The translations under genes were made by a program, and so were the position numbers. Below are positions 32,787 to 60,816 of a stretch of 64,000 nt of DNA, in pieces. The stretch is from Clostridiaceae bacterium (GTDB taxonomy: Bacteria > Bacillota > Clostridia > DSM-8532). Numbering within the stretch: position 1 is the stretch's first letter; every line of letters starts with the position of its first letter. The stretch covers positions 1 through 64,000 of the forward strand of contig DULR01000017.1 in assembly GCA_012840245.1 (NCBI GenBank), in the 5' to 3' direction. The notes beneath the pieces are model-generated. The model was not told where the DNA came from. It ran no database searches and saw only the letters and a program-made list of their open reading frames with translations.

Positions 32787-32823
32787 ACACAACAGGTACA
32801 GGCCTCGGCCTTACCTGTTGTGT
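32787..32823 (+). terminator. Stem-loop after solute-binding protein gene
   Basis: ACACAACAGGTA-AGG/CCT-rich loop-TACCTGTTGTGT. Confidence 0.7.
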
Positions 32824-32860
32824 ATTTAAAACTGATTTTGAGAATAGAAAGGATACCCAG

Positions 32861-33847: not shown

Positions 33848-33881
33848 TCGCAGCTTCCCCTGGATTGGAGGATAAAAGGGA

Positions 33882-41924: not shown

Positions 41925-42241
41925 TCGTACCTGTAAAGCGCCATTTTGAGATATATGGTGTTATAGGTGCTCAAATATCTCCCGTCAATACTGATTACGA
42001 AGAAAAGGAAAGACAGCTCATATTTTTTTCAGATCTGAGTACCATTGTGCGGATATCAGATGAGCTTGGAAAACCGATCCTTTATCATTATCAGTCGAAA
42101 AAAAGCGGTATATGCAAATTTTATGTCCTTCATGACAGAGAGATGTATGTATTTGATATAAAAGCGAATCAGGACTCCGGAACGAATGATTATTCGACTG
42201 AAACCAAAGATTTGCTGGAATCAATAGGTCACTTCGTTTAA
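41921..42241 (+). CDS. Hypothetical soluble protein
   Basis: ORF overlaps the preceding stop (ATGA-type overlap); no family recognised. Confidence 0.4.
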   Translation: MIVPVKRHFEIYGVIGAQISPVNTDYEEKERQLIFFSDLSTIVRISDELGKPILYHYQSKKSGICKFYVLHDREMYVFDIKANQDSGTNDYSTETKDLLESIGHFV

Positions 42242-43863
42242 TTATTACTATCTGTATCCGGCGGTTCTGAGGTTGTCTCAGGTGTTTGCTCAGGCTGAGG
42301 TGCAGGAGATGCAGGTGATGGCTCCCTTAAGACATTTATGGTATATTTTCTTGAAAAGAGGCCGTCGGCAGATAAAACATGTACGATGATCACGTTTTCG
42401 CCTTCGGTCAGTTCTATCTTGTCAGGGTCTGTTTTTTTATCGTTGACCGTATAGCTTATACGTACCTTTTCATCGTAGGGTTTCAGGGTTATTCTGGCAT
42501 ATGCTGCGTAAGACGGTACCTTTGCTGAAAACAAAGCGTTGGCAGTATTGAATGGAGGACTTAGAACCATGTTGTTCCATTCCGCATTCGGGCTTATTTG
42601 CATCTCGCCTGTATTCTTCTCAGAAGCTGCAGTCTGAGTCGAACTCGCGGGAGCTGGAGCCGGTGTCGGCGATGCGCCGGGTGCAGGTGATGTTTCAGTA
42701 TCGGTCGTTGTGTCTGAACCTGAAGGCTCTGCAGCATCGGGATTCTGACCGGTTTGCTCTGATGCCGGACTTTCCCCGGGCGGCAAGAGCACGTATTGAA
42801 GCTGCAGCTTTTCAAGATAAACATTCGATGTCACGATCTTCTTATCGCCATTCTCTTCTGTTTCTGCATACTCACCGTCTATGCCGCTGTTATCATAAAC
42901 GATCTGTTTCACCAGTTTTGCATGGATGGCTATACGCCCGTCATCTCCCCGGCTCTTGTCGCATGTGGACAGCGTGATGATCTTGTCCCGGGGTGAGAGA
43001 GAAACTCCGAAATCATGCTCCGATCTGCTTTTAATAATATTAAGAAAGCTCATGAAGTCCTCATCATCTGAAAACACCGTTCTTCTGTAGTCGAAGTCGG
43101 CTTCGGTCGAATAGGCTGAAAAAACCTTGTATTCAAGGCGAGTGTAAAGCAAATCCAGATATATGGTGGTGATATTTCCGTATTTCTCTTCATCGGTGGG
43201 ATAGCCTCTCAGATTTCCGAACATGGAATTGTTTCTCATGGCATGGCCGTAAATGACTATATTTCTGTCGGGTTCTGCGCTGAGATTGGCCGCGTCCATG
43301 AATATCGAACCTGAATTTGATTTGTTTTTATAAAAGTCGTGGGTCATGTAATAGTCATTGTCGAAATACTGCATTACGGGATAATCGATGGGTTTTTTGA
43401 ACCCTGGCATGGTGATCCACCCCACCAGATCATCATTCTGGGCTTTCAGATCCGCATATATCTTTAAAATGCCGTCGGAATTCAAATCATCGGGATCGCC
43501 GTTGAAAACGACATATGGAAGTGGCTCTTCATTTTCATTTTTTGAGGTATCAGGCTCATCCTTGGTATCCGACGGAGTAAGATTCTGAAAATCAGGCGAT
43601 ATATGACCGGACTGGACCGAAGCCCGGATCTCATTGTAAACCTTATCCTCTTTATGGTATGCATAGAGCTTGGCTATAAGCATTGACAGGGAAATCAAAA
43701 AGGCAGCGATGAGAACATAGAAAAGCAGATTCCTGACCAAATCGTCAGAAAAAATCTGCTTTTTTATCGGTTTATCCTTTTCTTCCTTTGGTCCATTTTC
43801 ATGGGTCAAATTTTCTTCCATAAGCCAATAAATCTCCTGCAGCAAGCCGTTGTCCATACCCAT
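42238..43863 (-). CDS. Class B-like sortase with P/S/T-rich linker and C-terminal cadherin-like beta-sandwich
   Basis: N-terminal TM, sortase motifs (NIVIYGHAM, TLSTCDKSRGDDGRIAIHAKLV), low-complexity linker, then cadherin-like repeat (NGENVIIVHVLSADGLFSRKYTINVLR-like). Confidence 0.88.
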   Translation of the reverse strand: MGMDNGLLQEIYWLMEENLTHENGPKEEKDKPIKKQIFSDDLVRNLLFYVLIAAFLISLSMLIAKLYAYHKEDKVYNEIRASVQSGHISPDFQNLTPSDTKDEPDTSKNENEEPLPYVVFNGDPDDLNSDGILKIYADLKAQNDDLVGWITMPGFKKPIDYPVMQYFDNDYYMTHDFYKNKSNSGSIFMDAANLSAEPDRNIVIYGHAMRNNSMFGNLRGYPTDEEKYGNITTIYLDLLYTRLEYKVFSAYSTEADFDYRRTVFSDDEDFMSFLNIIKSRSEHDFGVSLSPRDKIITLSTCDKSRGDDGRIAIHAKLVKQIVYDNSGIDGEYAETEENGDKKIVTSNVYLEKLQLQYVLLPPGESPASEQTGQNPDAAEPSGSDTTTDTETSPAPGASPTPAPAPASSTQTAASEKNTGEMQISPNAEWNNMVLSPPFNTANALFSAKVPSYAAYARITLKPYDEKVRISYTVNDKKTDPDKIELTEGENVIIVHVLSADGLFSRKYTINVLREPSPASPAPQPEQTPETTSEPPDTDSNN

Positions 43864-43964: not shown

Positions 43965-46085
43965 TCATACCTTGAAAATGCTGATGGCAGCTTTAAGACG
44001 CTGAGCCTCCTTTTCAAGCTGCTCGGCATTTTTCTGATAAGCTTTCATTTCGTGCATCTGCCTATCGAACGAAGCCGTGACCTCCTGAGTCGTAGCAGCT
44101 GTCTGCTGGGAAACTGATGAAATATTCTGGATGGTGCTGAGAACCTGGTCCTTATGTCCGACCATTTCTTCGGTGCTCAATTTTATTGCATGGACCTTTT
44201 TCACCAGTGCCTCCATGGATTCTGAAATCTCATTGAAGGACAAAATGGCTTTTTCAAGCGCTTCGTTCTGCTCCGATATGGTCATTTCGGTCGAATCTGC
44301 CTTCCGGACCATCATTTCGGTTTGCTGTTCATTTTCTTTTACTATTTTCGCGATATCCTGAGCTGAGGCAGCGGTCTTTTCAGCCAGCTTCTTCACTTCC
44401 TCGGCGACGACTGCAAACCCGCGTCCCGCTTCTCCTGCCCTTGCTGCTTCAATTGAAGCGTTGAGCGAGAGAAGTCTGGTTTGCTCGGCAACTCCGGTTA
44501 TGACCTTGACTATTTTAGTGATATTTTTGCTTCTTTCGCTGAGATTATCGATATCGCTCCGAACTTCCCTTATGATCCTGTTTGTCTGGGCAGCCTTCTC
44601 TTCAAGGTCCCTTATGGATGAAAGACCGTTTTTGGTAAGCCGGAAGGTTGAATCCGATACCTGTTCGATCTGTTTTGCGTTATCAGAGACAACACCGATG
44701 GCAGCTGCAAGCGAATTGGATTTTTTGACCCCTTCTTCGGTATCCTGCGCCTGCGCATTTGCTCCTGAGGCTATCTCTTCCACCGCTGCGGTTATATCCT
44801 CAGCAAAAGCCACGATATTGGCTGTGGATGAGTTTACGAGCGAAGCCGAATCAAAAACTGCCCCTGCGATATCGGCAGCCTCGAAGATTAGCCGCCGCAT
44901 GCTTTCCATCATCTGGCCTATGCTTGCAGTCAGCATACCCAGTTCATCGCTCCTGTCGCTTTTCAGCTCCTGGCGCAGATCGCCTGAAGCCGCTGCTTTG
45001 GCGGCAGAAACGATCTTTTTGATTCCTGCGCTGAGCTTACCCGATATCATTAGAGCTATCGTTATTGAGATCACCACTGCAGCCGCTACTACGACCAGTG
45101 TCGTTCCAAGTATACTGTTGGCCGCAGCATTCAAAACCTTCAGTGGGATTTCAGTACCGATAATAACAGCGTTCTTCTCAGCCTTTTCAAGGATAAAGAT
45201 CTTGTCTTTATCCTCCTTTACCATAACAGGTTCGGAGCTTTTCACAAAATCGGCATATACCGGATTTTTCGAGAATGAATAGCCCGATTCGATGTTGGAA
45301 AGATCGGCTTCAAGTTCAACAGCATTATCGAACTCGTCCTGGGTTATGATATGGCTCACGCCCCTTAGCGTACCCATCCTTTCGATCATGCTGCCGACAA
45401 CCGTCGGATCTATTTCGATTATGATCACTCCCATCATGGAACCGGAGTAAGTGTCGATATACTTGGTGATATATGCAAAAGAAGATTTCCCTGCTCTGGC
45501 GTTCCCACCGTAAAGCTCCAGCAAAACCGACTTGTCTCCTACCCACATACTCCTTTCCTTGCCCGACAGGAATGAGTCAAAAAAAGGGATGGCTTTAAGC
45601 TGGTCAAGGTTTTTTACCGTCATACCGGTCGATGTCATGCTGGGAGATATGAAAATACCATTGTTTTTACCGATGATGGCATAGTTTTTTATGTATTTGT
45701 TCGACGCAGTAAAAGACAGCATCAGCGAATTTATCCTGTTCTGCACCTCTATCCGCTCTTCCGGATCTATATCCATAAAATCCGGTTTCAGCGAAGTTTT
45801 GATATCCTCATTTGTAATAAACTGCGCCGCCTGTGATTCAACGATGTTTCCGAGCATATTGAACATCGAGATCTCGCCGCTTATTACGCCTTTGGAGGAA
45901 TCGGCGGCAATTTTGATCATCTCTGATCTGGCCATCGAAAATGAAAATACGCCAATGATTATGATCGCAAATATGGGAACCAGATACGAGACAATCAGTC
46001 TTGTACTTAGTTTGAGCTGCGGAAATTTGAACTTAACGGGTCTGAGGTTGGGCCTGACGGATTTTCCTTTTTTGATATCCATCAT
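43965..46085 (-). CDS. Methyl-accepting chemotaxis protein
   Basis: Cache-type extracellular region, HAMP and MCP signalling domain ([35 protein letters not shown]); start near 46085 behind AGGAGG. Confidence 0.93.
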
Positions 46086-46150
46086 AACAACGCCTCCTGT
46101 AATTAATATTTGCTTGAAACAAGCCACCTCAAAATTAATATCACTACTGC

Positions 46151-46792
46151 TTACTCATATATACAAATCTCAGCAGCCTGTCCTCCTTTTTCGAAGGTTC
46201 CCGAATTCTGCGTAAAAATAAATTGTACATAGGCAGCATCGGTTGGGGTAAACTCAATGATAACCAGATTCCCTGTCTGGGGATCGAACTGGTATTGGGT
46301 TGACGGGACAACCGTTGTAAATTCCTCTCCGTCTGTACTGACCTGAATCTCGAAAGTCTGGGTACGAGGACCCCAAATTGCTGCGGGGTTCAGCATGATG
46401 ACCGCGGTCCTGATCTTATAGGTCCCATCAAGATCTATCTTCATGTAGTTAGGAAAATCAGCGCCCTCCCAATATGTCAGAACGTTGCCGTCATTTACAT
46501 TCTTAGGCTTGTATACATCAGTATGAAGACCGCTTTCGACTTTTTTGTTCAGCGCTACATTTTCGCCTGTTGGAAGCTCCGGCACTACCGGCTCGGGTTT
46601 TTCAAAGCCGGCCGGAACCTCCACTTTTGACTGCTCAGGAGTTGCAACACGGTTGACGATTGGCGTGGGCTTTGCATTTTTGGCTGTTTCGGAACCGGAA
46701 GTTTCCGCAGGTGTCATGAAAATCGTATAAATGCTGACAGCACTGCATATAACGATGATGGCAATCAATATGTAAGAAATCGTCTTTTTCAC
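46151..46792 (-). CDS. Membrane-anchored F5/8 type C (discoidin-like) domain protein
   Basis: N-terminal TM, then [11 protein letters not shown]...[37 protein letters not shown]. Confidence 0.82.
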
Positions 46793-46801: not shown

Positions 46802-48343
46802 TCATTCCACAATAATATTGGCAGTGTAGGAATTGATCTTCAGCTTAAGATCCTTTTCATTCGTTATCCTGTTGCCGTTTATGACAACATTTCTTATCGT
46901 TACGTTCTCGACCATATGCTCTTCATCATATCCGTAGATACGGGACGGGGGCGTCACACCGGCATCTGAATTGAGAACGGTAAGGTTCTCGACCAGAACA
47001 TCCTTTATTTTGCCGCGGTTTGGTGTTGTTGACCATCCGCTTGCAGCTATGTTGAAATCTATGAGCTGATTGTTGTCCCCTGCATCTCCCCTGCCCATAA
47101 AGGCATTCTCAACAACAATGTTGCTGTATGTAATATTCTGGACAAGAGCGTCATCCGAGTTGTGGATTGAGATGACCGGCTTATGGAAGTTATAGAGGAC
47201 TGTGATGTTTTTAAATGTTATATCTGTGATTTTTGAGTTCTTAAGCTGACCTTTGTTGGTTTCATATCCTATCTCACAGGACTGCGCCAGGTCTGTCCAG
47301 ACCTGGATATTGTCAAAGGTAATGTTGTTTGAGTTTATACCGTAGTTTTTAACAACGAGTGAGTCATCCCAGCTTCGTACAAAACTGTCTTTGACATAAT
47401 AATTCAGACAGGACTGGAAGGTAAAGCCGTCACCGTTGGGACGGGCTGAAATTATTTTTACGTTGGAAATCTCGGCGCCGTCGGACTGGAAGGAATTGAA
47501 GCACCATGCGTTGGAGTTGTGGATTATTATGCCTTCCACCTTGATGTTGAAGCAGTTGCGGAAATCTATAGGCACTCTTGCGTATTCTCCTTCTTTTACC
47601 CACGATTCATATATAGAACCATCGATCATTCCCCTGCCTCTGATGCTTACATTCTTTGCGTTGTCTGCCACCACCGAACCGTGCAGTATAGCACCGCCGG
47701 AGATATAAAGCGTTTGATTGTCCTTTAATGTCAGGCTTTCGATCTCCCATTCTCCCGGTTCGATAAATATAACGTTAGGATCATTCTTATCGGGAATATC
47801 CTTTTCAATGGGGTTTGCAAAAATATGAAATGCTTTGTTGGGCGATCCGTTGAACTGTACGGTATATTGTCCGGGCTCAGTAAGCGTAAATTTGACATGG
47901 CCGTCTGCCACTTCAGCCTGTACACCTGCCGAAAGGGGTGAAACCACTGCCGATTCGACCGGTTTGTCCAGACCTGTCATCAAAATGTCCACTTTCACTT
48001 CTCCTTCAAAATCAAAGTATGCCATAGGAGTCGAGGAAAGCTTGGGCGTTTTGCTCCAGGAATGGGTATTGTTTACTACTGCATCGTAAACGAATACGGG
48101 TTCTCCTTCAACGGTCAACTTGGCATCATCAGAGGCTTTTATTGTCTTTGGAGCATCATAAAGTGTTAGTGTTGCCGGTGATTTCCCAGACACATCAGCA
48201 TTTCCTTCGATGCTTTGTACCGGACCGGAATTTGCTCTAATGGCTAAACTCGGCACAAAAAGCTGAATTACGGTAAACGCTACGGCAATAAGGGCTAAAA
48301 TCCCCAGAAAAATAAGTGAAAAATTATTATTTTTTTGCTTCAT
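46802..48343 (-). CDS. Membrane-anchored right-handed beta-helix glycoside hydrolase (GH28/GH49-like)
   Basis: N-terminal TM, beta-helix repeats (GGAILHGSVVADNAKNVSIRGRGMIDGS, NGDGFTFQSCLNYYVKDSFVRSWDDSLVVKN). Confidence 0.8.
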   Translation of the reverse strand: MKQKNNNFSLIFLGILALIAVAFTVIQLFVPSLAIRANSGPVQSIEGNADVSGKSPATLTLYDAPKTIKASDDAKLTVEGEPVFVYDAVVNNTHSWSKTPKLSSTPMAYFDFEGEVKVDILMTGLDKPVESAVVSPLSAGVQAEVADGHVKFTLTEPGQYTVQFNGSPNKAFHIFANPIEKDIPDKNDPNVIFIEPGEWEIESLTLKDNQTLYISGGAILHGSVVADNAKNVSIRGRGMIDGSIYESWVKEGEYARVPIDFRNCFNIKVEGIIIHNSNAWCFNSFQSDGAEISNVKIISARPNGDGFTFQSCLNYYVKDSFVRSWDDSLVVKNYGINSNNITFDNIQVWTDLAQSCEIGYETNKGQLKNSKITDITFKNITVLYNFHKPVISIHNSDDALVQNITYSNIVVENAFMGRGDAGDNNQLIDFNIAASGWSTTPNRGKIKDVLVENLTVLNSDAGVTPPSRIYGYDEEHMVENVTIRNVVINGNRITNEKDLKLKINSYTANIIVE

Positions 48344-48379: not shown

Positions 48380-48397
48380 AAGTTGAGCGTTTAACTT
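48380..48397 (-). promoter_or_regulatory. Candidate operator, beta-helix GH operon
   Basis: In gene direction AAGTTAAACGCTCAACTT; 15/18 match to the operator at 48510-48527. Confidence 0.55.
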
Positions 48398-48403
48398 GTT
48401 AAT

Positions 48404-48432
48404 ATTGTACCATATTATATTTTACAAAGCAA
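48404..48432 (-). promoter_or_regulatory. Sigma-A promoter of beta-helix GH operon
   Basis: Minus strand TTGCTT-N17-TACAAT, 6 bp before operator. Confidence 0.55.
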
Positions 48433-48435
48433 CCA

Positions 48436-48457
48436 TTTTAGTTTAATGTAACTAAAA
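48436..48457. promoter_or_regulatory. Additional intergenic palindrome
   Basis: TTTTAGTT-TAATGT-AACTAAAA, perfect 8-bp arms. Confidence 0.4.
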
Positions 48458-48473
48458 AAACTCGCCTTTGGTA

Positions 48474-48502
48474 TTGACACCATTGCCTATATTTGCTATA
48501 CT
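48474..48502 (+). promoter_or_regulatory. Sigma-A promoter of NPKTG protein gene
   Basis: TTGACA-N17-TATACT. Confidence 0.75.
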
Positions 48503-48508
48503 GATGAC

Positions 48509-48528
48509 AAAGTTTATCGCTAAACTTT
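48509..48528 (+). promoter_or_regulatory. Candidate LacI-type operator
   Basis: AAAGTTTA-TCGC-TAAACTTT, perfect 8-bp arms, 6 bp after the -10; degenerate second site GTTCAACGATAAAC at 48534-48547. Confidence 0.7.
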
Positions 48529-48572
48529 ATTGAGTTCAACGATAAACCAAATTATTTAAGGGAGGCACATCC

Positions 48573-49424
48573 ATGAAAAAAGTTATTTTTACCGCTTTCT
48601 TAGCTGTTCTGCTGGCAGTATCAATGACTGTATTAGCTTCTGCCGGCACTATTCCATCTGATGCTTTTCTGTTCGATGATTTCTCTCAACCCCGTGGCAT
48701 GAACACCAACGACAAGCCCGCTCATAACGGAGCCGGTCTGCAATGCTGGTGGCACAACTTCAATGCAGGCGAAGTAAAAAATAAGGAATGCGAACTCAAA
48801 GACGGCATCCTGAAGATCGTTTACGGCTTCGATATGGAAGATGACGTAGTTTATACCTGGGGTAACTGGGGCGAAGCATTCGACATCCATTGTACTGATT
48901 CAACAGGAACAAGGGGCGACCCGAATTGCCAGGATTATAAGTATTTCCACATCACAATCAAGGGCGCTAAAGGCGGCGAAGAGAAGGTTCTGATATTCAA
49001 TCCCGCTCCCGAAGATGATGACAACTATTCATTATTCTTTGATCAGCTCGTTCTTGCAGATGGTTCACATCCGAAAATCACAACCGAATGGCAGACTCTG
49101 AAGATCGACCTTGCTGCATCAGGAATGCCTCAGGTATTCAACCGTTTCCACATCAGATCCATCAAAGACGGCGTTACCATTTATCTTGACGAGCTGTACT
49201 GGACAGAGCCCGATGGCAACGGCAAGAAGCCTGTTCCTAACCAGAACTTCACCAAGCTTGCAACTCCTGAAGTAATCAAGCAAAGAGTTGCTGCATTCGA
49301 AAAAGGCACATCCGCTTCAGCTAATCCTAAGACCGGCGACAGCGGCATCTTCGCTCTGGTTGCTGTTATGATGGTTACAGCTGCTGGTATAGTTGCTCTT
49401 AAGGTTAAAAAAGCAAAAGTATAA
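48573..49424 (+). CDS. Secreted, sortase-anchored carbohydrate-binding-like beta-sandwich protein
   Basis: Signal peptide; CBM/jelly-roll-like body; C-terminal NPKTGDSG + TM helix + KVKKAKV sorting signal. Confidence 0.8.
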   Translation: MKKVIFTAFLAVLLAVSMTVLASAGTIPSDAFLFDDFSQPRGMNTNDKPAHNGAGLQCWWHNFNAGEVKNKECELKDGILKIVYGFDMEDDVVYTWGNWGEAFDIHCTDSTGTRGDPNCQDYKYFHITIKGAKGGEEKVLIFNPAPEDDDNYSLFFDQLVLADGSHPKITTEWQTLKIDLAASGMPQVFNRFHIRSIKDGVTIYLDELYWTEPDGNGKKPVPNQNFTKLATPEVIKQRVAAFEKGTSASANPKTGDSGIFALVAVMMVTAAGIVALKVKKAKV

Positions 49425-49457
49425 TCCCAGGATTTGACGGACTTATACTTCCTTACA

Positions 49458-49490
49458 TAAATGCCGCTCCGAATACGGGGCGGCATTTAT
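49458..49490 (+). terminator. Rho-independent terminator
   Basis: AAATGCCGC-TCCGAATACGGG-GCGGCATTTATT. Confidence 0.75.
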
Positions 49491-49513
49491 TATTGTCATA
49501 TTTTCACAGGGAT

Positions 49514-50080
49514 GTGAGTTTAGTGAGTTTAGGGGACGGACACTTTGACTCATTGTAATATTTGATATATGCTGACGAAGTCAAAACTCACATTCCGTGC
49601 CTGTACTGTCAAGGATGACATCACTGCGGCATATATTGCTTTAGTGCTGAGCAAGAGCGTGTACTTCACGTCCGCATTCATGTACTAGATAAACGATTTA
49701 AATTTGTTAGGCAACCGCTCGGTGTCATTTCTTCGAAATATTCCGTATTATCAAAACAAAATATACGCAAACGAAATTCCGCTTACGAGGGACCTTGCTC
49801 CCACCGTAGGGATCCGCACACATCATCCTGATCAAATGATCTTGCAGAGGCATTCATCACACGACATTTAATGTCATCACCGCATAACTCGTATCTTCAT
49901 GAGCAAGCGAAGGAACTATAAAGATTCTTCGTCGCTTTCGCTCCTCAGAATGATATATATATTGGTAACCCAAGCACTAAGGGTGAGCTACAGATTGCGA
50001 AATTAAAATGAGTCAAAGTGTCCGTCCCCTAAACTCAAAATGAGTCAAAGTGTCCGTCCCCTAAACTCACTAAAACTCAT
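49514..50080. mobile_element. MITE-like / REP-type element with inverted repeats (one left copy, two tandem right copies)
   Basis: GAGTTTAGGGGACGGACACTTTGACTCATT at 49514-49554; reverse complements at 50007-50036 and 50039-50080; no transposase ORF inside. Confidence 0.65.
49919..49955. repeat. Dispersed palindromic intergenic repeat (half copy)
   Basis: AAAGATTCTTCGTCGCTTTCGCTCCTCAGAATGATAT. Confidence 0.6.
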
Positions 50081-50087
50081 AAAATAA

Positions 50088-50128
50088 AAAAACAGATGGA
50101 TCGGGGGTTTCTGGATCCATCTGTTTTT
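50088..50128. terminator. Bidirectional terminator of ABC importer operon
   Basis: ACAGATGGATC-loop-GATCCATCTGT flanked by A and T runs. Confidence 0.85.
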
Positions 50129-50192
50129 ATGTCGAGCAAAAAGGTCTGTCCTGTGCACTGATGTGCATGAAGGACCATCCCGGATATGCTTT

Positions 50193-51095
50193 TTAACCTT
50201 TTATACCTGAAGTCATGATGTTCTCGGTGAGCTTCTTCTGGAAGAAGAAGAACAGGATTATCGGAGGCAGTATGGAGAATACCACTGCACGGAGAACATC
50301 GAGATCGTTCGTATTATTGGCCCCCCTGTATTCAAAAAGCTTGACCATAACTGTCCTGTAATTATTGTCGAGAACCAGATAGGGCAGCAGGAAATCCGAC
50401 CATGCGCCGTTTATAGTATAGATGGCAACAACCACCAGTATGGGTTTGGAAAGCGGCAACACAATACGGGAGAACACCTGAAGAGGCCCGCAGCCGTCAA
50501 TACGTCCGGCTTCTATCATGGTCATCGGGAAGGAATCGAAAAACTGTTTGAACAGGACAACATAGAATGCATTAGCTCCCGCGGCAAGCCAAAGGGGAGT
50601 AAAAAACCCGGTCATCTTCAATCTGGTCAGATTCGCAAACAACGGAGTGATGAAAGTCGTTGCCGGAATGAGAAGAGAGAACATAACCAATGAATATACG
50701 ACCTTATGTCCTTTGGGTTTGAGTATCGACAGACCATAGGCAAGCAGACCGTTGAAAAGCAAAGCAGTAACGATGCTTCCTGTCACCGACCAGAGCGAAT
50801 TTATGTAATATTTATGGAATTTCATGTCTTTCCATGTATCGATATAGTAGTCTATGTTGAAAGCCTTTGGTAAAAAGCTTTTATTCCCTAAGAACTGCAT
50901 CGTGCCGTAGAACTCCTTGAGTTCCTTGAATCCGGCCAGGAATACCCATACTATCGGGAAAACCGATACTACCAGAATCACCGCACACGCCAGGTATATA
51001 AAAACCAATCCTATTTTTACACTGCTTGACCGAAGATCATAATCCCGTATAACGCCTGTTCGCTTGATACCGTTCATATTTTCCACACTCCTCAT
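50193..51095 (-). CDS. Carbohydrate ABC transporter permease
   Basis: EAGRIDGCGPLQVFSRIVLPLSKP motif. Confidence 0.92.
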   Translation of the reverse strand: MRSVENMNGIKRTGVIRDYDLRSSSVKIGLVFIYLACAVILVVSVFPIVWVFLAGFKELKEFYGTMQFLGNKSFLPKAFNIDYYIDTWKDMKFHKYYINSLWSVTGSIVTALLFNGLLAYGLSILKPKGHKVVYSLVMFSLLIPATTFITPLFANLTRLKMTGFFTPLWLAAGANAFYVVLFKQFFDSFPMTMIEAGRIDGCGPLQVFSRIVLPLSKPILVVVAIYTINGAWSDFLLPYLVLDNNYRTVMVKLFEYRGANNTNDLDVLRAVVFSILPPIILFFFFQKKLTENIMTSGIKG

Positions 51096-51997
51096 TCAAG
51101 ACTCTCTCTGCGCTTATTCAAAGTGTTGTATATGACCGTGAAGGTAAGCAGCATCAAAGCTATGATGACAGATACCGCTGATGCCCTTCCATAGTCGATG
51201 CTGGACGCATTCTGTATATAATTGAACAGAAGCTGCATAAGCGAAATCGATGCGTTGTCGGGTCCTCCGTTCGTAAGTACAAGCGGTTCATACAGGATCT
51301 GGAATACGGCGATGATCTGCAGGATGAGCAATGTGCTTCCAAGGTTGAAAATCTGGGGCAACGTAATGTGCCATGTGCGGCGCCAGATGCCTGCGCCGTC
51401 GATAGTAGCTGACTCATACAGCTCCGGGTTGATCCCCGCAAGTCCTGCCATATATATGAGAGCTGTGGCTCCTGCGCCTTTCCATGTCAATATAACGACG
51501 ATAAGAGGGATAATGATATCCGCATTTGACAGCCATGCTCTGGCATCCATTCCTAAATAACTGATCAGTACGTTGAAAGCTCCTGAAGGTTTTGCGGAGA
51601 AGAAACTTCTCCACATCAAGACTGTTGCAAGCCCAGGCATAATATTGGGAAGATAAGACGCTGTCCTGAACAGTCCCCTCAGACGTGTCGTCTCGCCTAT
51701 CAGAACAGCTATTATTATAGGCATCAAAAATCCTATGACAAGGGACCAAAGCACATATGATACGGTATTTCTCAAAGCCGCTGTAAAATTGGGGTCTTTG
51801 AAAACCGCTATGTATTGATCCAGTCCCACGAATTTTTCAAGGCTCACGCCTTTTGTTTTAAAAAGGCTCATTACAATGCTTTCACCCATCGGGACCCAAA
51901 CGAAGAAGGCGAATAAAATCACCGACGGCAGCATTATGAGCCAGGAATTGATATTGTTTTTCAGATTCCAATACTTGCCTGAGTTTTTGTCAATCAT
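51092..51997 (-). CDS. Sugar ABC transporter permease
   Basis: ESATIDGAGIWRRTWHITLPQI motif; 4-bp overlap with downstream permease. Confidence 0.92.
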   Translation of the reverse strand: MIDKNSGKYWNLKNNINSWLIMLPSVILFAFFVWVPMGESIVMSLFKTKGVSLEKFVGLDQYIAVFKDPNFTAALRNTVSYVLWSLVIGFLMPIIIAVLIGETTRLRGLFRTASYLPNIMPGLATVLMWRSFFSAKPSGAFNVLISYLGMDARAWLSNADIIIPLIVVILTWKGAGATALIYMAGLAGINPELYESATIDGAGIWRRTWHITLPQIFNLGSTLLILQIIAVFQILYEPLVLTNGGPDNASISLMQLLFNYIQNASSIDYGRASAVSVIIALMLLTFTVIYNTLNKRRESLE

Positions 51998-52054
51998 TTT
52001 TTCACCGCATTCTGTCTAAATTTTGGCTCATAGGTTCCGGATAATTATGAATCT

Positions 52055-52086
52055 GCCTGGCAGCCGAAATGGATCGGCTGCCGGGC
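52055..52086 (-). other. Intra-operon stem-loop between solute-binding protein and permease genes
   Basis: GCCTGGCAGCCG-AAATGGAT-CGGCTGCCGGGC. Confidence 0.7.
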
Positions 52087-52106
52087 AGTCTCTTTAAGTT
52101 TACTTA

Positions 52107-53591
52107 TTATTGAGCATCATTCACATATTCGTCAATCAGCTTCTGGAAGTTATCCTGTGCTTTGTCGAGAAGTTTTTGGATATCGGCATCCTTGTTCGTA
52201 AGAACTCTCTGGATTACCTTTGTCAGCTCAAGGTACATTTCCTGGGCCATGATGGGCTCTTCAGCACGGAGAGCGCCTTTGTTGATGGTATCAAAGTAAT
52301 CCTGATAGAATCTCATATCTATGTTCTGATATTGATTTACAACTTCCAGCTCAGCTTCTGTGTATTCAGGATTGTTCCATGCCTGTATGCGAGGGATAAC
52401 GGGTATGCCATCCTGTACGCGTCTTGCGGCATCCTGCTTCATACCTTCTATGCTGTCCGGAGTAAGAACAGGAGCTTTGCCCATCAGCTCAAGATATGCA
52501 AGGCAGGCTTTGATCTGATCCGAGGTTGCATTGGGAGCAAACATATATGCGGTACCGCCTGCGAGCATATACTGATCGCCCTTTGGTCCTGCCGGGAACG
52601 GAACGAGTGCCAGTTTGTCAACAGGAAGACCGTTGATCGCAGTGGGGTTATCAACTGCGTCGTTAGCACCGAAGTACATTGCTGCTCCGCCTGTTCCCAG
52701 TTGTGTCATACCTGATCCCCAGTTCTCCTGAGTCGGGTCAGCTGTGAGACAGTCATATTTCCATTTGAGATCTCTTACGAATTCCATGGCCGCAACAACT
52801 TCAGGAGTGTTGAGATGTGCATACCATCTGCCGTTTTCATATGTTTCAAGCGTTGCTCCATAGTTCCATGCTATATTTGAAAAATGCCATCCGCCGGCGC
52901 CATCCATAGCAAGGAGGCAGAATCCTGGAGTGCCTGTTCTCTCTTTTATAAGGGCTGCAGTTTCAGCAAGTTCCTGAAGTGTCTTGGGATACTTGGGAGT
53001 TCCGTCTTCATTCATCAGGTCGGCTGCTTCGAACAGTTCGACGTTTATCATTAAACCTAAACCGTAAGAATCACGAGGAATACCATAGATCCTGCCTTCT
53101 GCATCAGAAAGCATCCTCTTGTATCCCGGATTCATGTATTGTTCCCAGCCCTTTTCCTTAAGTTCATTGGTTATCTCTGCCACCAGACCGGCATTAATAA
53201 GCCTTTGGGGTTCGGTGAACCATGGCTGGAATATGGTAGGTGCGTTGCCTGCCGAAGCCATAGTTACGTACGTATCAACAGCGTATTGATAATGGAATGG
53301 CTCGATCGTAACATTTGGGTACAGTTCCTTCATCTTAGCAACAAAGCCTTCATGCATGGCTATTTCAGATTCTGCAGCAGTATCAGAAGGCCAGACACCA
53401 AGCTTGATGGTTGCTGTAAGATTCGGGTCGCCCTGAAGGCCTTCACCTATAGGAGTGATCTCTACTTCGGAAGTTGACGAAGGTGTTGCTGTTGGTGTTG
53501 CTGTCGGTTGGTTATCGTTGTTCGATGGCGCTCCGCAGCCTGCCAGGAGCAGGATAAACGCCAGGGTTAAGGTAAGAATTGACTTTTTCAT
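52107..53591 (-). CDS. Extracellular solute-binding lipoprotein
   Basis: Lipobox LLLAGCGAPS; family 1 solute-binding fold; start at 53591 behind AAGGAGGG. Confidence 0.92.
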   Translation of the reverse strand: MKKSILTLTLAFILLLAGCGAPSNNDNQPTATPTATPSSTSEVEITPIGEGLQGDPNLTATIKLGVWPSDTAAESEIAMHEGFVAKMKELYPNVTIEPFHYQYAVDTYVTMASAGNAPTIFQPWFTEPQRLINAGLVAEITNELKEKGWEQYMNPGYKRMLSDAEGRIYGIPRDSYGLGLMINVELFEAADLMNEDGTPKYPKTLQELAETAALIKERTGTPGFCLLAMDGAGGWHFSNIAWNYGATLETYENGRWYAHLNTPEVVAAMEFVRDLKWKYDCLTADPTQENWGSGMTQLGTGGAAMYFGANDAVDNPTAINGLPVDKLALVPFPAGPKGDQYMLAGGTAYMFAPNATSDQIKACLAYLELMGKAPVLTPDSIEGMKQDAARRVQDGIPVIPRIQAWNNPEYTEAELEVVNQYQNIDMRFYQDYFDTINKGALRAEEPIMAQEMYLELTKVIQRVLTNKDADIQKLLDKAQDNFQKLIDEYVNDAQ

Positions 53592-53648
53592 TATATCCCT
53601 CCTTAAAAAATTCCCGTCAAAAATGTGCATGTTGCACAAATATTTAAT

Positions 53649-53668
53649 TTAGTTTAGCGATAAACTAA
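53649..53668 (-). promoter_or_regulatory. Candidate LacI-type operator
   Basis: TTAGTTTA-GCGA-TAAACTAA, perfect 8-bp arms. Confidence 0.7.
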
Positions 53669-53672
53669 CCTA

Positions 53673-53701
53673 ATTATATACAAATACTTTCTAAGTGTCA
53701 A
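53673..53701 (-). promoter_or_regulatory. Sigma-A promoter of ABC importer operon
   Basis: Minus strand TTGACA-N17-TATAAT, 4 bp before operator. Confidence 0.8.
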
Positions 53702-53897: not shown

Positions 53898-54770
53898 TCA
53901 GCCTTTTACCGAACCTGCCATTATTCCTCTCGTTATATGCTTATTGAGAATTATATATACGATTAGCGTCGGCAGAGCGCTTAAGGTCATCACTGCAAAC
54001 TGAGCCGAATAATTGGACGTGTACTGTCCCGCAAAATTATAGACTGAGAACGGGAGAGTTCTGAATCTGTCGCTTGACAGGAATGTGGCAGCCATTATGA
54101 ACTCGTTCCAGATGCTTATGAACGACATGATTATTACAGTCATGATCGCAGGCTTGAGAATGGGAAAAATGATCTGGAAAAGAAGTCTGAATACACTGCA
54201 CCCATCCATGAAGGCCGATTCCTCAATGGCTTCAGGAACCGTGTCCATAAAACCTGTAAGGATGAAGGTTGCCTGCGGAAGACCGAACGCTACATAGGGT
54301 ATTATCAGCGCGAACGGCGAATCTTCTATATTGAGGCTTGTAAACGTCAGGAAGTTTGGAAGCAGCGTGGCGTGAATAGGGATCATAAATCCCAGGAGAA
54401 CTATGTTCAGGAACATCCTGCTGAGCTTCCACTTCATCCTTGTAAAACCATAGGACATCATGACTGAAAGGATCACTATCAATATCAGGCTGACAGTGGT
54501 TATGATTATGCTGTTCAGGAAGTATTGCGGAACCTTACCTGCTGTCAGCGCAAGTTCATAGTTCTTCCAGTATGGCGGATTCGGCCATTTGAGAACATTT
54601 TTACCGAAAAGCTCATTACTTTGCACAAGCGAGAAATCTGTAAGCCAGACCAGCGGAAATATAGCCCCTATGGCAATGACCGAGCACAGAAATATATTTA
54701 AAAACCTGAAGATCGATGGTTTTGCTTTCAATCTCATACCTGAAATATTCTTATCTGCAAACTCTTTCAA
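53898..54770 (-). CDS. Carbohydrate ABC transporter permease
   Basis: ESAFMDGCSVFRLLFQIIFPILKP motif. Confidence 0.92.
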   Translation of the reverse strand: MKEFADKNISGMRLKAKPSIFRFLNIFLCSVIAIGAIFPLVWLTDFSLVQSNELFGKNVLKWPNPPYWKNYELALTAGKVPQYFLNSIIITTVSLILIVILSVMMSYGFTRMKWKLSRMFLNIVLLGFMIPIHATLLPNFLTFTSLNIEDSPFALIIPYVAFGLPQATFILTGFMDTVPEAIEESAFMDGCSVFRLLFQIIFPILKPAIMTVIIMSFISIWNEFIMAATFLSSDRFRTLPFSVYNFAGQYTSNYSAQFAVMTLSALPTLIVYIILNKHITRGIMAGSVKG

Positions 54771-54782
54771 AATACTCTCCCC

Positions 54783-55664
54783 TTAAACTTCTTTATTTCT
54801 GAACAGCTTCTGAACGATGATCGTTATGATCACGCATATCACTACAAATACCAGTGAGATGGCGTTCGCATAACCATATTTTTTCGCATTGAAGGCCTGA
54901 GTGTACAGATAATTCGCAACGAACTGGGTCTTTGTCCCCGGTCCGCCGTTGGTCATTATGAAGATCGGCTCCATCTGTTTCAATGAAGCTGTTATAGCTA
55001 TCGAAATATTAACGAAAATAACAGGTTTGAGCATGGGCAATGTAACTTTTACAAACTGCTGCCATGCGTTGGCTCCGTCTATCCTGGAAGCCTCGTACAA
55101 TTCATCGGGTACGCCCTTGATACCCGAATAATAAATCAAAAATGCATAGCCAAATCCCTGCCACATTATGACAAAGATAACCGAACCCAGGGCGATATTC
55201 GGGTTCCCCAGCCAGTCACGTTTGAGAAAACCTAAATTGACCAGCTCCAAAAATTTATTTACAAGACCATAGCTGGAATTGAACAGGTTCACCCACATCT
55301 TTGATGTTATAACGATCGAAATAACGCACGGAATAAAAAATACCGCTCTGAAAAACGTTTCAAGCCTGCCCTTCAGCTTATCTACCGCTATTGCATAGAA
55401 CATTGCGATCGGGTGTTGTATAAAAACCGTGGCAGCAGCCAGCAATGCCGCATTCAGAAGAGATGTCCTGAACACCTTGTCATTGAATATTACCGTTTTA
55501 TAATTTTCTGCTCCTACAAAATTATACTCGCCTATTCCCTTCCAATCGGTCATACCATAGAAAAAGCTTTTCACGATAGGGAAAAGTACCGCAAACGAAA
55601 AAACCAGTAGACCAGGAAAGACAAGCATAAATATTGTGCTTTTCCTTCGTCTGATTAGATCCAT
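54783..55664 (-). CDS. Sugar ABC transporter permease
   Basis: EASRIDGANAWQQFVKVTLPMLKP motif; likely start at internal Met 55664. Confidence 0.92.
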   Translation of the reverse strand: MDLIRRRKSTIFMLVFPGLLVFSFAVLFPIVKSFFYGMTDWKGIGEYNFVGAENYKTVIFNDKVFRTSLLNAALLAAATVFIQHPIAMFYAIAVDKLKGRLETFFRAVFFIPCVISIVITSKMWVNLFNSSYGLVNKFLELVNLGFLKRDWLGNPNIALGSVIFVIMWQGFGYAFLIYYSGIKGVPDELYEASRIDGANAWQQFVKVTLPMLKPVIFVNISIAITASLKQMEPIFIMTNGGPGTKTQFVANYLYTQAFNAKKYGYANAISLVFVVICVIITIIVQKLFRNKEV

Positions 55665-55710
55665 ACTGCTGTCCCCCTGCAAGATTTTTTTCCTGAAATG
55701 ATCCAATATT

Positions 55711-55740
55711 GTCTGAGCAGGGTCTTCGCCCTGCTCAGAC
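55711..55740 (-). other. Intra-operon stem-loop between solute-binding protein and permease genes
   Basis: Perfect 12-bp stem GTCTGAGCAGGG-TCTTCG-CCCTGCTCAGAC. Confidence 0.8.
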
Positions 55741-55752
55741 GTGATAGTTCAA

Positions 55753-57105
55753 TTATTTTGCAGCTGCTTCGTCAAGTTTGCTCAGGAATTCGTCGATTGA
55801 AACGGCACCTGCCGAGAACTCCTGGATAATGTTCTCAACGTCAGATTTCCATTCACCGGGTTTGAAGTCGTTCCAGGGTGTACCGCTCATCGATGTGGCA
55901 GTATTGAGGATATTTGTTACACCTTTCTGGAGTATGTTCTCATTGCCTGTCAGATATGATGAGTAGTTCTGGCCAGGCACAACAAGTCCTTCCTGCCATC
56001 CGATCTTAGCCCAGTTATCGGGATGCATCATGTAGTTGAGCAGCTTGATGGCTTCTTCTTTTACGGGTGAAGATGCAGATACTGCGTAGCCGCCGCCGTT
56101 CCATGCCACGATGTCGGTTGCTTTGCCCTTACCATCTTCAACCACAGGGAACGGGATCAGATCTACATTCTTTCTGAAGCTTTCGGAGTTGTCAGGATTG
56201 CTTGCCATACCGACTTCCCATGCTCCCATGTAGAACATGGCTGCCTGTTCCTGCAGGAAGAGGTTCATGGCTGCGCCATAATCGGCCGATATGAACGAAT
56301 CCTGGAAAAGACCGGCGTCTATAAGGCCTTTATACAACTCTGCCGCTTTTCTGATATCCGGATCGGATGCGAAGTTGGTATCGCCCTTTGATGCGTTGTA
56401 AATGGTGCGCTGATTTCCGCTGACTTTTAGCAGCAGATCCTGGAAGAACAGGTTGAGTATCCATTTGTCCTTGCCGTTGATGGTAAGAGGCTGAATGCCT
56501 TTTTCTCTGAATGCTCTTGCAGCATCCAAAAGCTCATTGTATGTAGTGGGTATTTTGACGCCGTTTGCTTCAAACATTCCCTTGTTGATGTACAGTGTAG
56601 TCATGTCCTGGTTTCTGGGAAGTCCATAAAGTTTTCCGTTGTAGCTGAAGTCTGTAGTTGCGCCTTCGAAGAATCCGTAATCCTTGTAGTCATCGGGGTT
56701 CAGTTCGGCAACATATCCTTTTTCCATAACTGCTTCAAGGAATGAAGGCTGTCCCCATACGCTGAGGAAATCAGGCAAATTATTACCTGCCACATATGAC
56801 TGGAATTTCTGCTTGTAAGGCTCATCCTGAAGCGCTTCCACTTTTATCGTCACATGCGGATTTTCTTTCACGTAGTTGTCCAGCAGCATTTGCTCAAGCT
56901 TGCCCTGACCGGCCGAACGGTCTGAAAGGTTCGTGAACACATTGATCGTTACAGGATCTTTTCCGGGTTCGCTCGACGGACTCTGGCTTGCTGCCGGTGA
57001 AGAAGTTCCTGGTGTATTCGTTGTTTCTTTCCCGCCACAAGCTGCAAGACTGACCAGAATAGCTATCATAGTCAGAAAAACGAGCACTTTTTTAAAAGTT
57101 TTCAT
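55753..57105 (-). CDS. Extracellular solute-binding lipoprotein
   Basis: Lipobox VSLAACGG; family 1 solute-binding features. Confidence 0.93.
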   Translation of the reverse strand: MKTFKKVLVFLTMIAILVSLAACGGKETTNTPGTSSPAASQSPSSEPGKDPVTINVFTNLSDRSAGQGKLEQMLLDNYVKENPHVTIKVEALQDEPYKQKFQSYVAGNNLPDFLSVWGQPSFLEAVMEKGYVAELNPDDYKDYGFFEGATTDFSYNGKLYGLPRNQDMTTLYINKGMFEANGVKIPTTYNELLDAARAFREKGIQPLTINGKDKWILNLFFQDLLLKVSGNQRTIYNASKGDTNFASDPDIRKAAELYKGLIDAGLFQDSFISADYGAAMNLFLQEQAAMFYMGAWEVGMASNPDNSESFRKNVDLIPFPVVEDGKGKATDIVAWNGGGYAVSASSPVKEEAIKLLNYMMHPDNWAKIGWQEGLVVPGQNYSSYLTGNENILQKGVTNILNTATSMSGTPWNDFKPGEWKSDVENIIQEFSAGAVSIDEFLSKLDEAAAK

Positions 57106-57350
57106 TTCGAACTCCTCCTTGAAATTACTTAATTTTGGTAGCTACACTGTTAATATAGCATCTTCAGTGTTCATTATAAGTAGACAAATTTTTAAAATGG
57201 TTTTCTATTTTTATACATTGTGCTATACTTACGTTATAAGATTTTCCCATTTCATGAAAATGACTATAAGCGAAAGCTTTCTATATAACAGTTTTCTTAT
57301 ATATCGGGTATCGTCCCAGCAGATTTTACACAGGACATGTTTCGCAGAGG

Positions 57351-59219
57351 TTGGCTATGATTCAGGCTTTTTTCAATAAAATAAAGGTCTCTTTCATGAA
57401 CTTGAGCATAAGAAGCAAATTAATAATAGCCAATTGCATCATCATCTCGATCGTTGCTTTTTCCATAGGCATCACAGCCTATTCCCTTTATCGCCAGACC
57501 GTTACGAACCGCCTGTCCACTGTCAATTTAAGAGATCTGAAACAGGTAGCCAACAGCATAGATTATCTGCAGAAAGACATTATAGAGCTTTCCAATTTCA
57601 TAGCGTCCGATTACACTGTCCAGAAAGCCATTTCATACTCTCCCGAAGAGCTGATCATGGCCATCCAGGAACAGAGCTACGTCAGGTATCTTATCAACAA
57701 CCTGCTCATATCAAAGGAATATGTAAGTTTTATAAGCGTCATCGCCGGCAACGGTTTCAGCCATTATGCCGCTTCTGACAGAAGCTTCGGTATACCGACA
57801 TTTCAGATGCTAAGCGAGACCGAATACTACAAGAAGGCTTATGACGGCAAGGGTTCCCCCTTATGGGCATATCTCCCCATAGACAACACCGACTATATAA
57901 CCAGCAATAAAGGCAATAAAATAATCATGTTCAGGACCCTGCTCAAGATGAACGATTATTCCACCAAAGGATTCATAATGATATCCATCAATCTTGACAA
58001 ACTTAAAGAAATATACAGGAGCATGCTGGAAATCGATCAAAGCACTCTGATCCTGCTTGATGAAAATGGCCTCCCCATTTTTTATGACACCAATAAGCCT
58101 ACCGATCCGGGTTTCAACGGTGTCAGCGATATTTTGGACAGTATACCCGAAAAAGCTTTAAATGACGGCGAAGGCACAGAGATCTTCACTTACAACGGCA
58201 AACAGCTTCTTTTGACCTTCGCGCCACTCAAGAATGTCAGCTGGAAGCTTGTAAATATTGTTCCTTTGCAGAATTTTGCGGTCAATGTCCAGTTCATACC
58301 TGTAATCGTCATTATAGTTCTGGTATTCGCTCTGTTTCTCGGCTTTTACTTTACGACCTTCACCTCTTCCATGCTGATAAAGCCCATCAAAAACCTTCTT
58401 GCATCGATGACCCGTGTTAAGCAGGGCAATTTTAAGGAAACTGTCCGGGTCAAGTACAACGATGAGGTCGGAGAGCTTTGCCTGCACTATAACGATATGA
58501 TAGCCAACATCAACAGGCTGCTGAATCAGGTCTATACTCTTGAGATCGAGGAGAAGATCGCAGAGCTTAAGGCACTCCAGGCACAGATAAATCCCCACTT
58601 TTTGTATAATACCCTTGACACTATCTACTGGAAAGCGGTATCGGGCGATAACAAAAGTGTCCAGGAAATGATCCACGCTCTGTCCAAACTGTTCCGACTT
58701 GCCCTCAACGTGGGCAAGGATTTTCTGTACGTGCGTCAGGAGAGAGAGCTCATCAGCTACTACCTGCTGCTGCAGGAAAAGAGGTATAAAAACAAGCTGG
58801 TTTATAACCTGGATTTCAGCCCCAACATCCTTTATTATCAGATACCCAAGCTGATTCTCCAGCCGTTTGTGGAAAATGCCATCGTTCACGGTATCGAGAC
58901 CGAGGATAAACCCACCAATGTAGACATACTGGGATTCATGGATGATGAAAGACTTCATTTCATAATCCGGGATAACGGGAAAGGCATGCCGCAGGAAGTT
59001 CTGGACAAACTGCTCAATCCTCAGATCGACGCAAACAGCACTCCCGACAGAGGCGGCTATGGTATCAAGAATGTAATAAACCGTCTGTCCATTTATTATG
59101 GCAGTAAATATTCGATAGATATAAAAAGCGAGCTGGGAAATGGCACCGAGATCGATATCTTCATACCGCAGACACCCGAAATCAATATAGAGAAAGGAAA
59201 TCTGAAGGGCTATGTATAA
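57351..59219 (+). CDS. Sensor histidine kinase, YesM-like (HisKA_7TM-less, His_kinase/HATPase)
   Basis: Cache region, HAMP, LKALQAQINPHFLYNTLDTIYWKA, DNGKGMP, GGYGIKNVINRL. Confidence 0.93.
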   Translation: MAMIQAFFNKIKVSFMNLSIRSKLIIANCIIISIVAFSIGITAYSLYRQTVTNRLSTVNLRDLKQVANSIDYLQKDIIELSNFIASDYTVQKAISYSPEELIMAIQEQSYVRYLINNLLISKEYVSFISVIAGNGFSHYAASDRSFGIPTFQMLSETEYYKKAYDGKGSPLWAYLPIDNTDYITSNKGNKIIMFRTLLKMNDYSTKGFIMISINLDKLKEIYRSMLEIDQSTLILLDENGLPIFYDTNKPTDPGFNGVSDILDSIPEKALNDGEGTEIFTYNGKQLLLTFAPLKNVSWKLVNIVPLQNFAVNVQFIPVIVIIVLVFALFLGFYFTTFTSSMLIKPIKNLLASMTRVKQGNFKETVRVKYNDEVGELCLHYNDMIANINRLLNQVYTLEIEEKIAELKALQAQINPHFLYNTLDTIYWKAVSGDNKSVQEMIHALSKLFRLALNVGKDFLYVRQERELISYYLLLQEKRYKNKLVYNLDFSPNILYYQIPKLILQPFVENAIVHGIETEDKPTNVDILGFMDDERLHFIIRDNGKGMPQEVLDKLLNPQIDANSTPDRGGYGIKNVINRLSIYYGSKYSIDIKSELGNGTEIDIFIPQTPEINIEKGNLKGYV

Positions 59220-60816
59220 ACTTGCTATTATCGATGATGAACATGAGCATGTGAACGGCGTGAAGGACTATATCCCCTGGGAAAGATACGAAATCGAGGT
59301 ATGCGGAGTTGCGTATAACGGAAGGGACGGGCTTGAGCTTATAAAGGAATGTCGCCCTGAGATCGCTCTCGTAGACATTCAGATGCCATTCATCGACGGT
59401 CTGTCCCTTATAGAGGAAGTGAACAAACTCGGAATAAACACACAGATGATCATAATGAGCGGACATGATGATTTCGAATACGCCAGACAGGCCATAAAAC
59501 TCAAGGCCAGCAATTATCTTCTTAAGCCTTGTTCTGCCGAAGAGATCATCCAGGCGGTGCTGAAGGCAAAAAACACCTATCTGGAAGAATCGAACAAAAA
59601 AAGTCTGATAGAGCAGTACCAGTCTGTTTTCCCGCAGTACATAAACCTTCTGAAGGAGAAGTTCCTGATAAGCCTTCTGGATAACAACCTTCAAAACCCT
59701 TCATCCTTTTTCAGGGATATCTCAAGCTATGGGATCAACCTGACAGACAACCCCTGCTGTGCCGCTGTATTCAGGCTGGAGGACAAGGACAGGCTTTACA
59801 CCCAAAGCACCAGCAGAGAATTCGACTTTCTGATAATAAGCATCATAGAAGAGATAAAAAAGGTCTCTGCAGACAAATATCCGTTTGAACTGGTCATTAA
59901 GGGCAATGACATCGTCCTGTTATCTTCAGGCGAACTGGCCGATTATGAAGCGTTCGTAGTCTATATCCAGAAAATATACCACAGACTGTCTGAGGTCTTT
60001 GAATACCAGTTCACCGTAGGTATAGGGCAGGTGGTCTCTACTCCTCTTTTTATACATAAATCATACAGCCAGGCTTTGGCTGTCCTGGAAAACAGCATTT
60101 TTTTAGGCGAGAAAAAAGTAGTCGTCTATGACGACAGGATCCTGGAAGAAAGCTTCCATTATCTTTATCCCTTCAATGAAGAGAAAAAGCTCCTGCATGC
60201 CATTGAGGCGGGAGATGTCTCAGCCATAAGGGAAGAAGTAGACAACTTTTTTGCTACCTTTGAACAGTGCTCCAACATAGACAACAATATACTGAAGAAG
60301 ATAGGAATAACGCTTTTGAACAGCATGATGAGGTTCTGCTCCGAAAAAAATCTGTACAACGATGCTTTGCACCAGCTGATTTTCAGCAGCTTCGACAAGA
60401 TCATCAAAGCCGTGTCCTTCGAATCCATGAAGGCTGAAATAAATAGAACCATTGACAAAATAATCGAGCATATCCATAGTACTGCGCCAATAAACAAGCT
60501 GGTCCAGCTTGCCCTCAACTATATCCATCAGAACTATGCCCGTGAAATAAGCCTGAAAACAGTGGCTGATGAGCTTTTCATCTCGGCATCATATTTAAGC
60601 TTTCTTTTCAAACAGGAGCTCAAAAAGAATTTCGTGGATTATCTCAACAATTACAGGATCAACATTGCAAGGGAGTTATTCAAGGATCCCAGGCTCAAGA
60701 GCTATGAGATAGCATACCAGGTCGGTTTCCAGGACGAAAAATACTTCTACAAGCTGTTCAAGAAATACACTGGTCTTACTCCTTCCCAGTACAGGGAAAG
60801 CGTTCAGGTTTTTTGA
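59212..60816 (+). CDS. YesN-like response regulator with AraC HTH output
   Basis: Receiver domain (IIDDEHEH, ALVDIQMPFIDG, LLKPCSAEE) and C-terminal AraC HTH. Confidence 0.94.
   Translation: MYKLAIIDDEHEHVNGVKDYIPWERYEIEVCGVAYNGRDGLELIKECRPEIALVDIQMPFIDGLSLIEEVNKLGINTQMIIMSGHDDFEYARQAIKLKASNYLLKPCSAEEIIQAVLKAKNTYLEESNKKSLIEQYQSVFPQYINLLKEKFLISLLDNNLQNPSSFFRDISSYGINLTDNPCCAAVFRLEDKDRLYTQSTSREFDFLIISIIEEIKKVSADKYPFELVIKGNDIVLLSSGELADYEAFVVYIQKIYHRLSEVFEYQFTVGIGQVVSTPLFIHKSYSQALAVLENSIFLGEKKVVVYDDRILEESFHYLYPFNEEKKLLHAIEAGDVSAIREEVDNFFATFEQCSNIDNNILKKIGITLLNSMMRFCSEKNLYNDALHQLIFSSFDKIIKAVSFESMKAEINRTIDKIIEHIHSTAPINKLVQLALNYIHQNYAREISLKTVADELFISASYLSFLFKQELKKNFVDYLNNYRINIARELFKDPRLKSYEIAYQVGFQDEKYFYKLFKKYTGLTPSQYRESVQVF

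Follow-up and report, generated by a model that had tools for sequence, protein, structure and literature searches.

Three promoters in a stretch of 64,000 nucleotides from a Clostridiaceae bacterium (assembly GCA_012840245.1, contig DULR01000017.1, positions 1 to 64,000), referred to here as the window, have a common promoter-operator architecture and very probably belong to one regulon, whose repressor would be a LacI-family protein encoded on another contig of the same genome. The genes that they serve encode an ATP-binding cassette (ABC) importer, a cell-wall-anchored protein with an NPKTG sorting signal, and a surface hydrolase followed by a discoidin protein. This reading is carried by the operator sites, the gene content, the synteny, the footprint of the operator across related loci and a conserved recognition helix in the regulator. 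An earlier note on this DNA had proposed a surface polysaccharide regulon made up of a surface hydrolase, a surface binder and an importer. These members were retained, but the regulon turned out to be wider, since it also includes two GH65 genes, the genes of a beta-phosphoglucomutase and of the repressor itself and, probably, one for a chemoreceptor, and would therefore amount to a complete catabolic pathway.

Operators in the window and in the rest of the genome

Direct reading of the sequence located each of the three units where the earlier note had placed it. The importer promoter (53673-53701, minus strand) consists of TTGACA at 53701-53696 and TATAAT at 53678-53673, separated by 17 nucleotides; 4 bp further on, just 3' of the -10 box, lies the operator TTAGTTTATCGCTAAACTAA (53668-53649, minus strand), which is kept in contig C24 of the close relative G007. 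The promoter of the NPKTG gene (48474-48502, plus strand) combines TTGACA at 48474-48479 with TATACT at 48497-48502 at the same spacing, and is followed after 6 bp by the operator AAAGTTTATCGCTAAACTTT (48509-48528, plus strand), of which G007 has an exact copy. A scan of the window revealed a second, tandem operator at this promoter, AGTTCAACGATAAACC (48533-48548, plus strand), which lies 22 bp downstream of the first, had been overlooked in the earlier note and is also kept in G007. The hydrolase operon has the promoter TTGCTT (48432-48427), 17 nucleotides, TACAAT (48409-48404), spanning 48404-48432 on the minus strand, and 6 bp beyond it the operator AAGTTAAACGCTCAACTT (48397-48380, minus strand), again kept in G007. 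With up to three mismatches allowed, the scan gave six operator matches in the window against 0.58 expected, and none of 100 shuffled sequences reached six.

The whole genome comprises 2.9 Mb in 108 contigs, of which the window is contig C62. The exact sequence AGTTTANCGNTAAACT occurs in three places in this genome (Poisson P ~ 7e-6) and in two in G007, compared with two in 57 relatives without the locus. That the palindromes have arisen by chance or convergence, and that the three units are regulated independently, is very improbable: versions with one or two mismatches do occur elsewhere in the genome, mostly within genes, but the exact sites are rare, lie in front of genes that are linked in function, and are kept from one genus to another.

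A scan of the genome for the operator pattern found AGTTTTACGTTAAACT upstream of a GH65 gene, GH65a (C50:50443), AAGTTTAACATTAAACG directly before the start of a LacI gene on the same contig (C50:56082-56097), and AGTTTAACGATAAACT just 5' of a gene on a third contig (C14:32752) whose product is a beta-phosphoglucomutase, with TIGR01990 matched above its cut-off. Beta-phosphoglucomutase converts beta-glucose-1-phosphate to glucose-6-phosphate. A search for operator-like sites and for LacI genes bearing the same site, which the earlier note had suggested as a check, did lead to such a LacI gene, the one on C50. A GH65 gene, an importer and pgmB all lie under a common operator, as in a GH65/beta-phosphoglucomutase disaccharide pathway. 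Palindromic operators stand at the promoters of sugar genes and of a regulator gene, as in a LacI regulon, with the usual central CG absent from the putative autoregulatory site. The CGCT centre in a common orientation, seen by the earlier note in its three operators, did not hold up as a general feature, since the regulon's remaining sites in the genome are centred on CGTT, CGAT or CATT. Across genera, the LacI gene's own operator mostly has no central CG (AACATT, AACCTT; C50:56082-56097, L088:4886-4927, L087:9799-9814), which suggests that it is probably a weaker, autoregulatory site.

Several other matches were set aside. Of the palindromic sites with two mismatches that were checked in other parts of the genome, most fall within genes; the site at C6:40641 is within a decayed binding-protein remnant, that at C8:6231 is intergenic but non-palindromic, and for C74:15285 the closest plausible gene is some 400 bp away. 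The number of operators per genome was also rejected as a discriminator, as one genome (G010) has four sites with up to one mismatch and no LacI orthologue and another (G012) has no site. The discriminating feature is the position of the operator relative to genes.

The candidate regulator

The genome has 13 LacI genes. The candidate regulator is the LacI on contig C50 (C50:55055-56065), a protein of 336 amino acids with the recognition helix VSATTVSNV, in which PF00356 (helix-turn-helix) and PF13377 (periplasmic-binding-like effector domain) are both matched above cut-off. Its gene comes after two tandem GH65 genes, in convergent orientation. The prediction of a LacI-family regulator encoded outside the window is borne out by this protein, on account of its own operator, its GH65 neighbours, co-occurrence, synteny and the footprint. 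A LacI gene on the contig of the beta-phosphoglucomutase gene (C14, 47754) was rejected because the C14 operator is 15 kb away from it and its helix is of the ordinary SRV kind.

It had also been stated that no LacI-type gene lies near the three units. This needs correction, since the window holds one at 28034-29068, with an upstream palindrome of another type. No other LacI gene on the contig is closer, the distance being about 20 kb, and on that ground it could be proposed as the regulator, but such a role is extremely unlikely: the palindromes upstream of it belong to the GAAACCGGTTTC type, its product has a different helix (SKATVSRV) and it adjoins another importer. The region around this gene (23412-34973) also contains three ADP-ribosylglycohydrolase-family genes, a PfkB kinase gene and a sugar ABC importer, and it looks like a second LacI-controlled catabolic locus.

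Two observations count against the C50 LacI as regulator of these genes. The LacI and pgmB genes of many relatives have no recognisable site, and the upstream palindrome AAGTTAAACGGTTAAATT of a further LacI gene (C10:34288-35319, adjoining a GH31 gene) has its left half in common with the hydrolase operator AAGTTAAACGCTCAACTT. The C10 LacI might on this basis control at least one of the window units or share sites with the C50 LacI. This is improbable, because the recognition helix of the C10 protein differs (VSVASVSYV, with a tyrosine at the helix position), and it is the TTVSN-type LacI that relatives link to these genes and that the footprint tracks.

Co-occurrence, synteny and footprint in relatives

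Orthologues of the C50 LacI (79-100%) are found in exactly four of 14 same-genus genomes, and the solute-binding protein (SBP) of the importer (54-100%) and the GH28-type hydrolase gene are found in the same four and no others. In G013 and G012 the genes form a single cluster in the order SBP, permease 1 (P1), permease 2 (P2), GH65a, GH65b, LacI, hydrolase and discoidin, to which G012 adds pgmB. When the hydrolase alignment was used to scan a collection of 85,462 species genomes, 80 loci were obtained, nearly all in Clostridia and many, according to the record titles, from rumen, termite gut and digesters. When these 80 loci were searched by tblastn, the discoidin protein was detected in 75, LacI in 67, GH65b in 62, GH65a in 61, PgmB in 51, the SBP in 45 and the NPKTG protein in 40; in most loci the discoidin gene follows the hydrolase gene.

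The footprint of the operator was determined as the best 16-mer with up to two mismatches within 300 bp upstream of each gene, without promoter alignment, and with shuffled sequences and genes inside operons as controls. Sites were present before 12 of 15 SBP genes, 31 of 40 NPKTG genes, 41 of 78 hydrolase genes, 13 of 65 LacI genes and 8 of 51 pgmB genes, counts in which one site between divergent genes may be included twice. Among the controls, 0-0.33% of shuffled sequences matched, and 0-1 matches were obtained before the discoidin, P1 and GH65b genes. At 40% identity or more there are 65 LacI copies, and each has TTV[SAT]N in its recognition helix. Because this helix occurs with the operator footprint at the same loci, regulator and operator are, by this comparison, conserved together.

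As the parts are clustered in G013, in G012 and in most of the 80 loci, the arrangement in the window genome and in G007 is, judged from these genomes, a widespread locus in dispersed form, with its parts on separate contigs. The clustering in relatives, together with operators that are present at the expected promoters and absent inside operons, indicates a conserved locus that is broken up in the window genome and still appears tied together by its operator.

Genes of the probable regulon

The importer unit encodes, on the minus strand, an extracellular SBP (SBP_bac_1, 52107-53639, likely start ATG at 53591) and the ABC permeases P1 (51092-51997) and P2 (50193-51095), both with a BPD_transp_1 domain. 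Directly behind this importer, at 53898-60816, a second ABC importer is encoded beside a dCache histidine kinase and a response regulator of the AraC type. The NPKTG protein (48573-49424, plus strand) is modelled, at low to moderate confidence, as a CBM-like beta-sandwich with a weak to moderate fold match to CBM29/CBM30-like modules; a sequence search of the PDB gave no match for its family, and many homologues end without such a sorting signal. Near its gene, at 42238-43863, a sortase-domain protein with a C-terminal cadherin-like domain is encoded, an unusual combination.

The hydrolase (46802-48343, minus strand) is a membrane-anchored beta-helix enzyme of clan GH-N, assigned to GH28 by Pfam. 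The next gene of its operon encodes a membrane-anchored discoidin (F5/8 type C) protein (46151-46792, minus strand), and 24 bp after it comes a gene for a methyl-accepting chemotaxis protein (43965-46127, minus strand), probably the last of the operon. The regulon may extend to taxis toward the sugar, because a chemoreceptor gene follows the discoidin gene in both the window genome and G007 and because in G013 a different chemoreceptor gene, adjoining the importer, carries an operator of its own (L086:10316-10331). Elsewhere in the window, a protein of 1096 amino acids with a phosphodiester glycosidase (NAGPA) domain is encoded at 8255-11545.

The substrate

On balance, the system probably acts on an alpha-glucan, with alpha-1,3 linkage the most likely. 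GH65a reads FAIT-S at the positions published as setting specificity. This is nearest to FAITQA of alpha-1,3-oligoglucan phosphorylase, with agreement at four of the six positions, an alignment gap at one and a difference at another, and is unlike the motifs of kojibiose (EEAPxx) and maltose (KV[MF]NES) phosphorylases. The structural model of the hydrolase (mean predicted local distance difference test score 90) has an N-terminal beta-sandwich and a beta-helix, as in GH49 alpha-glucanases. Its best Foldseek match is a GH49 isopullulanase (3wwg, E 1.8e-16, template modelling score 0.67), followed by GH49 dextranases and then by GH28, with the GH87 alpha-1,3-glucanase lower. The GH49 isopullulanases and dextranases and the GH87 alpha-1,3-glucanases are alpha-glucan-active enzymes with a right-handed beta-helix, although in sequence the window hydrolase has hardly any similarity to Pfam GH49. 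In polygalacturonases, residues of the G-H-G and R-x-K motifs bind the uronate, those of R-x-K at its carboxylate. Neither motif was found in the aligned region of the hydrolase, where the alignment is weak, though all three GH28 catalytic aspartates are kept (N-x-D 303-305, D326 and D327). GH65 phosphorylases cleave alpha-glucosides to beta-glucose-1-phosphate (PMC8950772, PMC8537180), and for Lachnoclostridium phytofermentans ISDg the published activities are nigerose phosphorylase for Cphy_3313 and alpha-1,3-oligoglucan phosphorylase for Cphy_3314 (PMC8950772). The order GH28-pgmB-LacI-GH65b-GH65a in L. phytofermentans KNHs2131 (L182), found also in UBA11728 (L180), fits Cphy_3310 to Cphy_3314.

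Several points weigh against an alpha-glucan. The equation of GH65a and GH65b with Cphy_3314 and Cphy_3313 fits by gene order and numbering, not by sequence. All 36 hydrolase orthologues match Pfam GH28, and the GH49 profile gave no real match among these 36, the best E value being 0.38 in one member. Cphy3310, which is probably the orthologue of the window hydrolase, is reported to act on homogalacturonan, boosted by a carbohydrate esterase (PMC4230839). The GH28 matches, the activity of Cphy3310 and the presence in the genome of UxaC, which makes uronate catabolism possible, also favour a pectic target, pectic polysaccharides being among those that the earlier note had named: the regulon and the C50 LacI would be the same, but the hydrolase would be a genuine polygalacturonase of GH28 and alpha-glucosyl side groups would be processed by the GH65 enzymes. 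A pectic substrate is doubtful and, in our judgement, unlikely. GH65 enzymes act on alpha-glucosides, in agreement with the published activities of Cphy_3313 and Cphy_3314; the hydrolase model is nearer GH49; the hydrolase is the sole GH28 gene found in the genome, where PF00544 pectate lyase was not found either; R-x-K was not found in the weakly aligned region; and for pectin in L. phytofermentans another LacI gene has been proposed, Cphy2742, whose sites are cre-like. Returning to the alpha-glucan, we suggest tentatively that the surface enzyme annotated as GH28, which across Clostridia is conserved together with the two GH65 phosphorylases, might be, instead of a pectinase, a clan GH-N family of its own that degrades alpha-1,3-glucan, and the outer part of a widespread LacI-controlled system for alpha-1,3-glucan utilisation that has a binder anchored in the wall and, in certain species, a chemoreceptor under the same control.

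Proposed mechanism

In the mechanism that we propose, a dimer of the C50 LacI would bind [AG]GTTTAnCGnTAAAC[CT], located at the -10 box or immediately downstream of it, and would thereby keep silent the genes of the ABC importer, those of the NPKTG protein and the beta-phosphoglucomutase, the hydrolase-discoidin(-chemoreceptor) operon and GH65a-GH65b; it would also repress its own gene through the probably weaker site without the central CG. The inducer would be a disaccharide of the pathway. The surface beta-helix enzyme would trim the alpha-glucan, the surface binders would retain it and the importer would take in the oligosaccharides. Inside the cell, GH65a, of the alpha-1,3-oligoglucan phosphorylase type, and GH65b, of the nigerose phosphorylase type, would release beta-glucose-1-phosphate, which PgmB would turn into glucose-6-phosphate. 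The three promoters would have a common repressor site because they serve pieces of one sugar-utilisation programme, an ancestral single locus having presumably been split over at least three contigs in the window genome, with each piece retaining its operator.

Relation to known systems and significance

The association of LacI, GH65, PgmB and an importer is already known from the KojR and YcjW systems; what is new is the surface-degradation part and the dispersal. To our knowledge, the ycj cluster of E. coli has no surface polysaccharide-degrading part, and its YcjT is of the kojibiose type, whereas GH65a here carries non-kojibiose residues. The ycj cluster shares with the present system a LacI-type repressor (YcjW), an ABC importer, a GH65 enzyme (the kojibiose phosphorylase YcjT) and a beta-phosphoglucomutase (YcjU), and kojibiose releases YcjW from DNA in vitro (PMC6599011). 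The KojR regulon of Caldicellulosiruptor bescii (pgmB-kojP, treP, kojEFG) shares a LacI regulator, CUT1-type importer genes, GH65-type phosphorylases and pgmB, but as described it is one kojibiose/trehalose cluster without a surface hydrolase, discoidin, sortase-anchored protein or chemoreceptor (PMC8579813). The likeness to KojR is one of gene content, kojibiose specificity being disfavoured by the GH65a residues of the window genome. In L. phytofermentans the genes form a single locus, in contrast to the window genome, where three contigs or more share them; the literature searched yielded no regulon for Cphy_3310 to Cphy_3314.

In conclusion, starting from a promoter motif noticed in raw sequence, one can arrive at a regulator on a different contig, and a catabolic locus can fragment while its control remains whole. 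The broadly conserved 'GH28 pectinase' of Clostridia from rumen, termite gut and digesters would probably serve in the breakdown of alpha-glucan, of fungal or bacterial origin.

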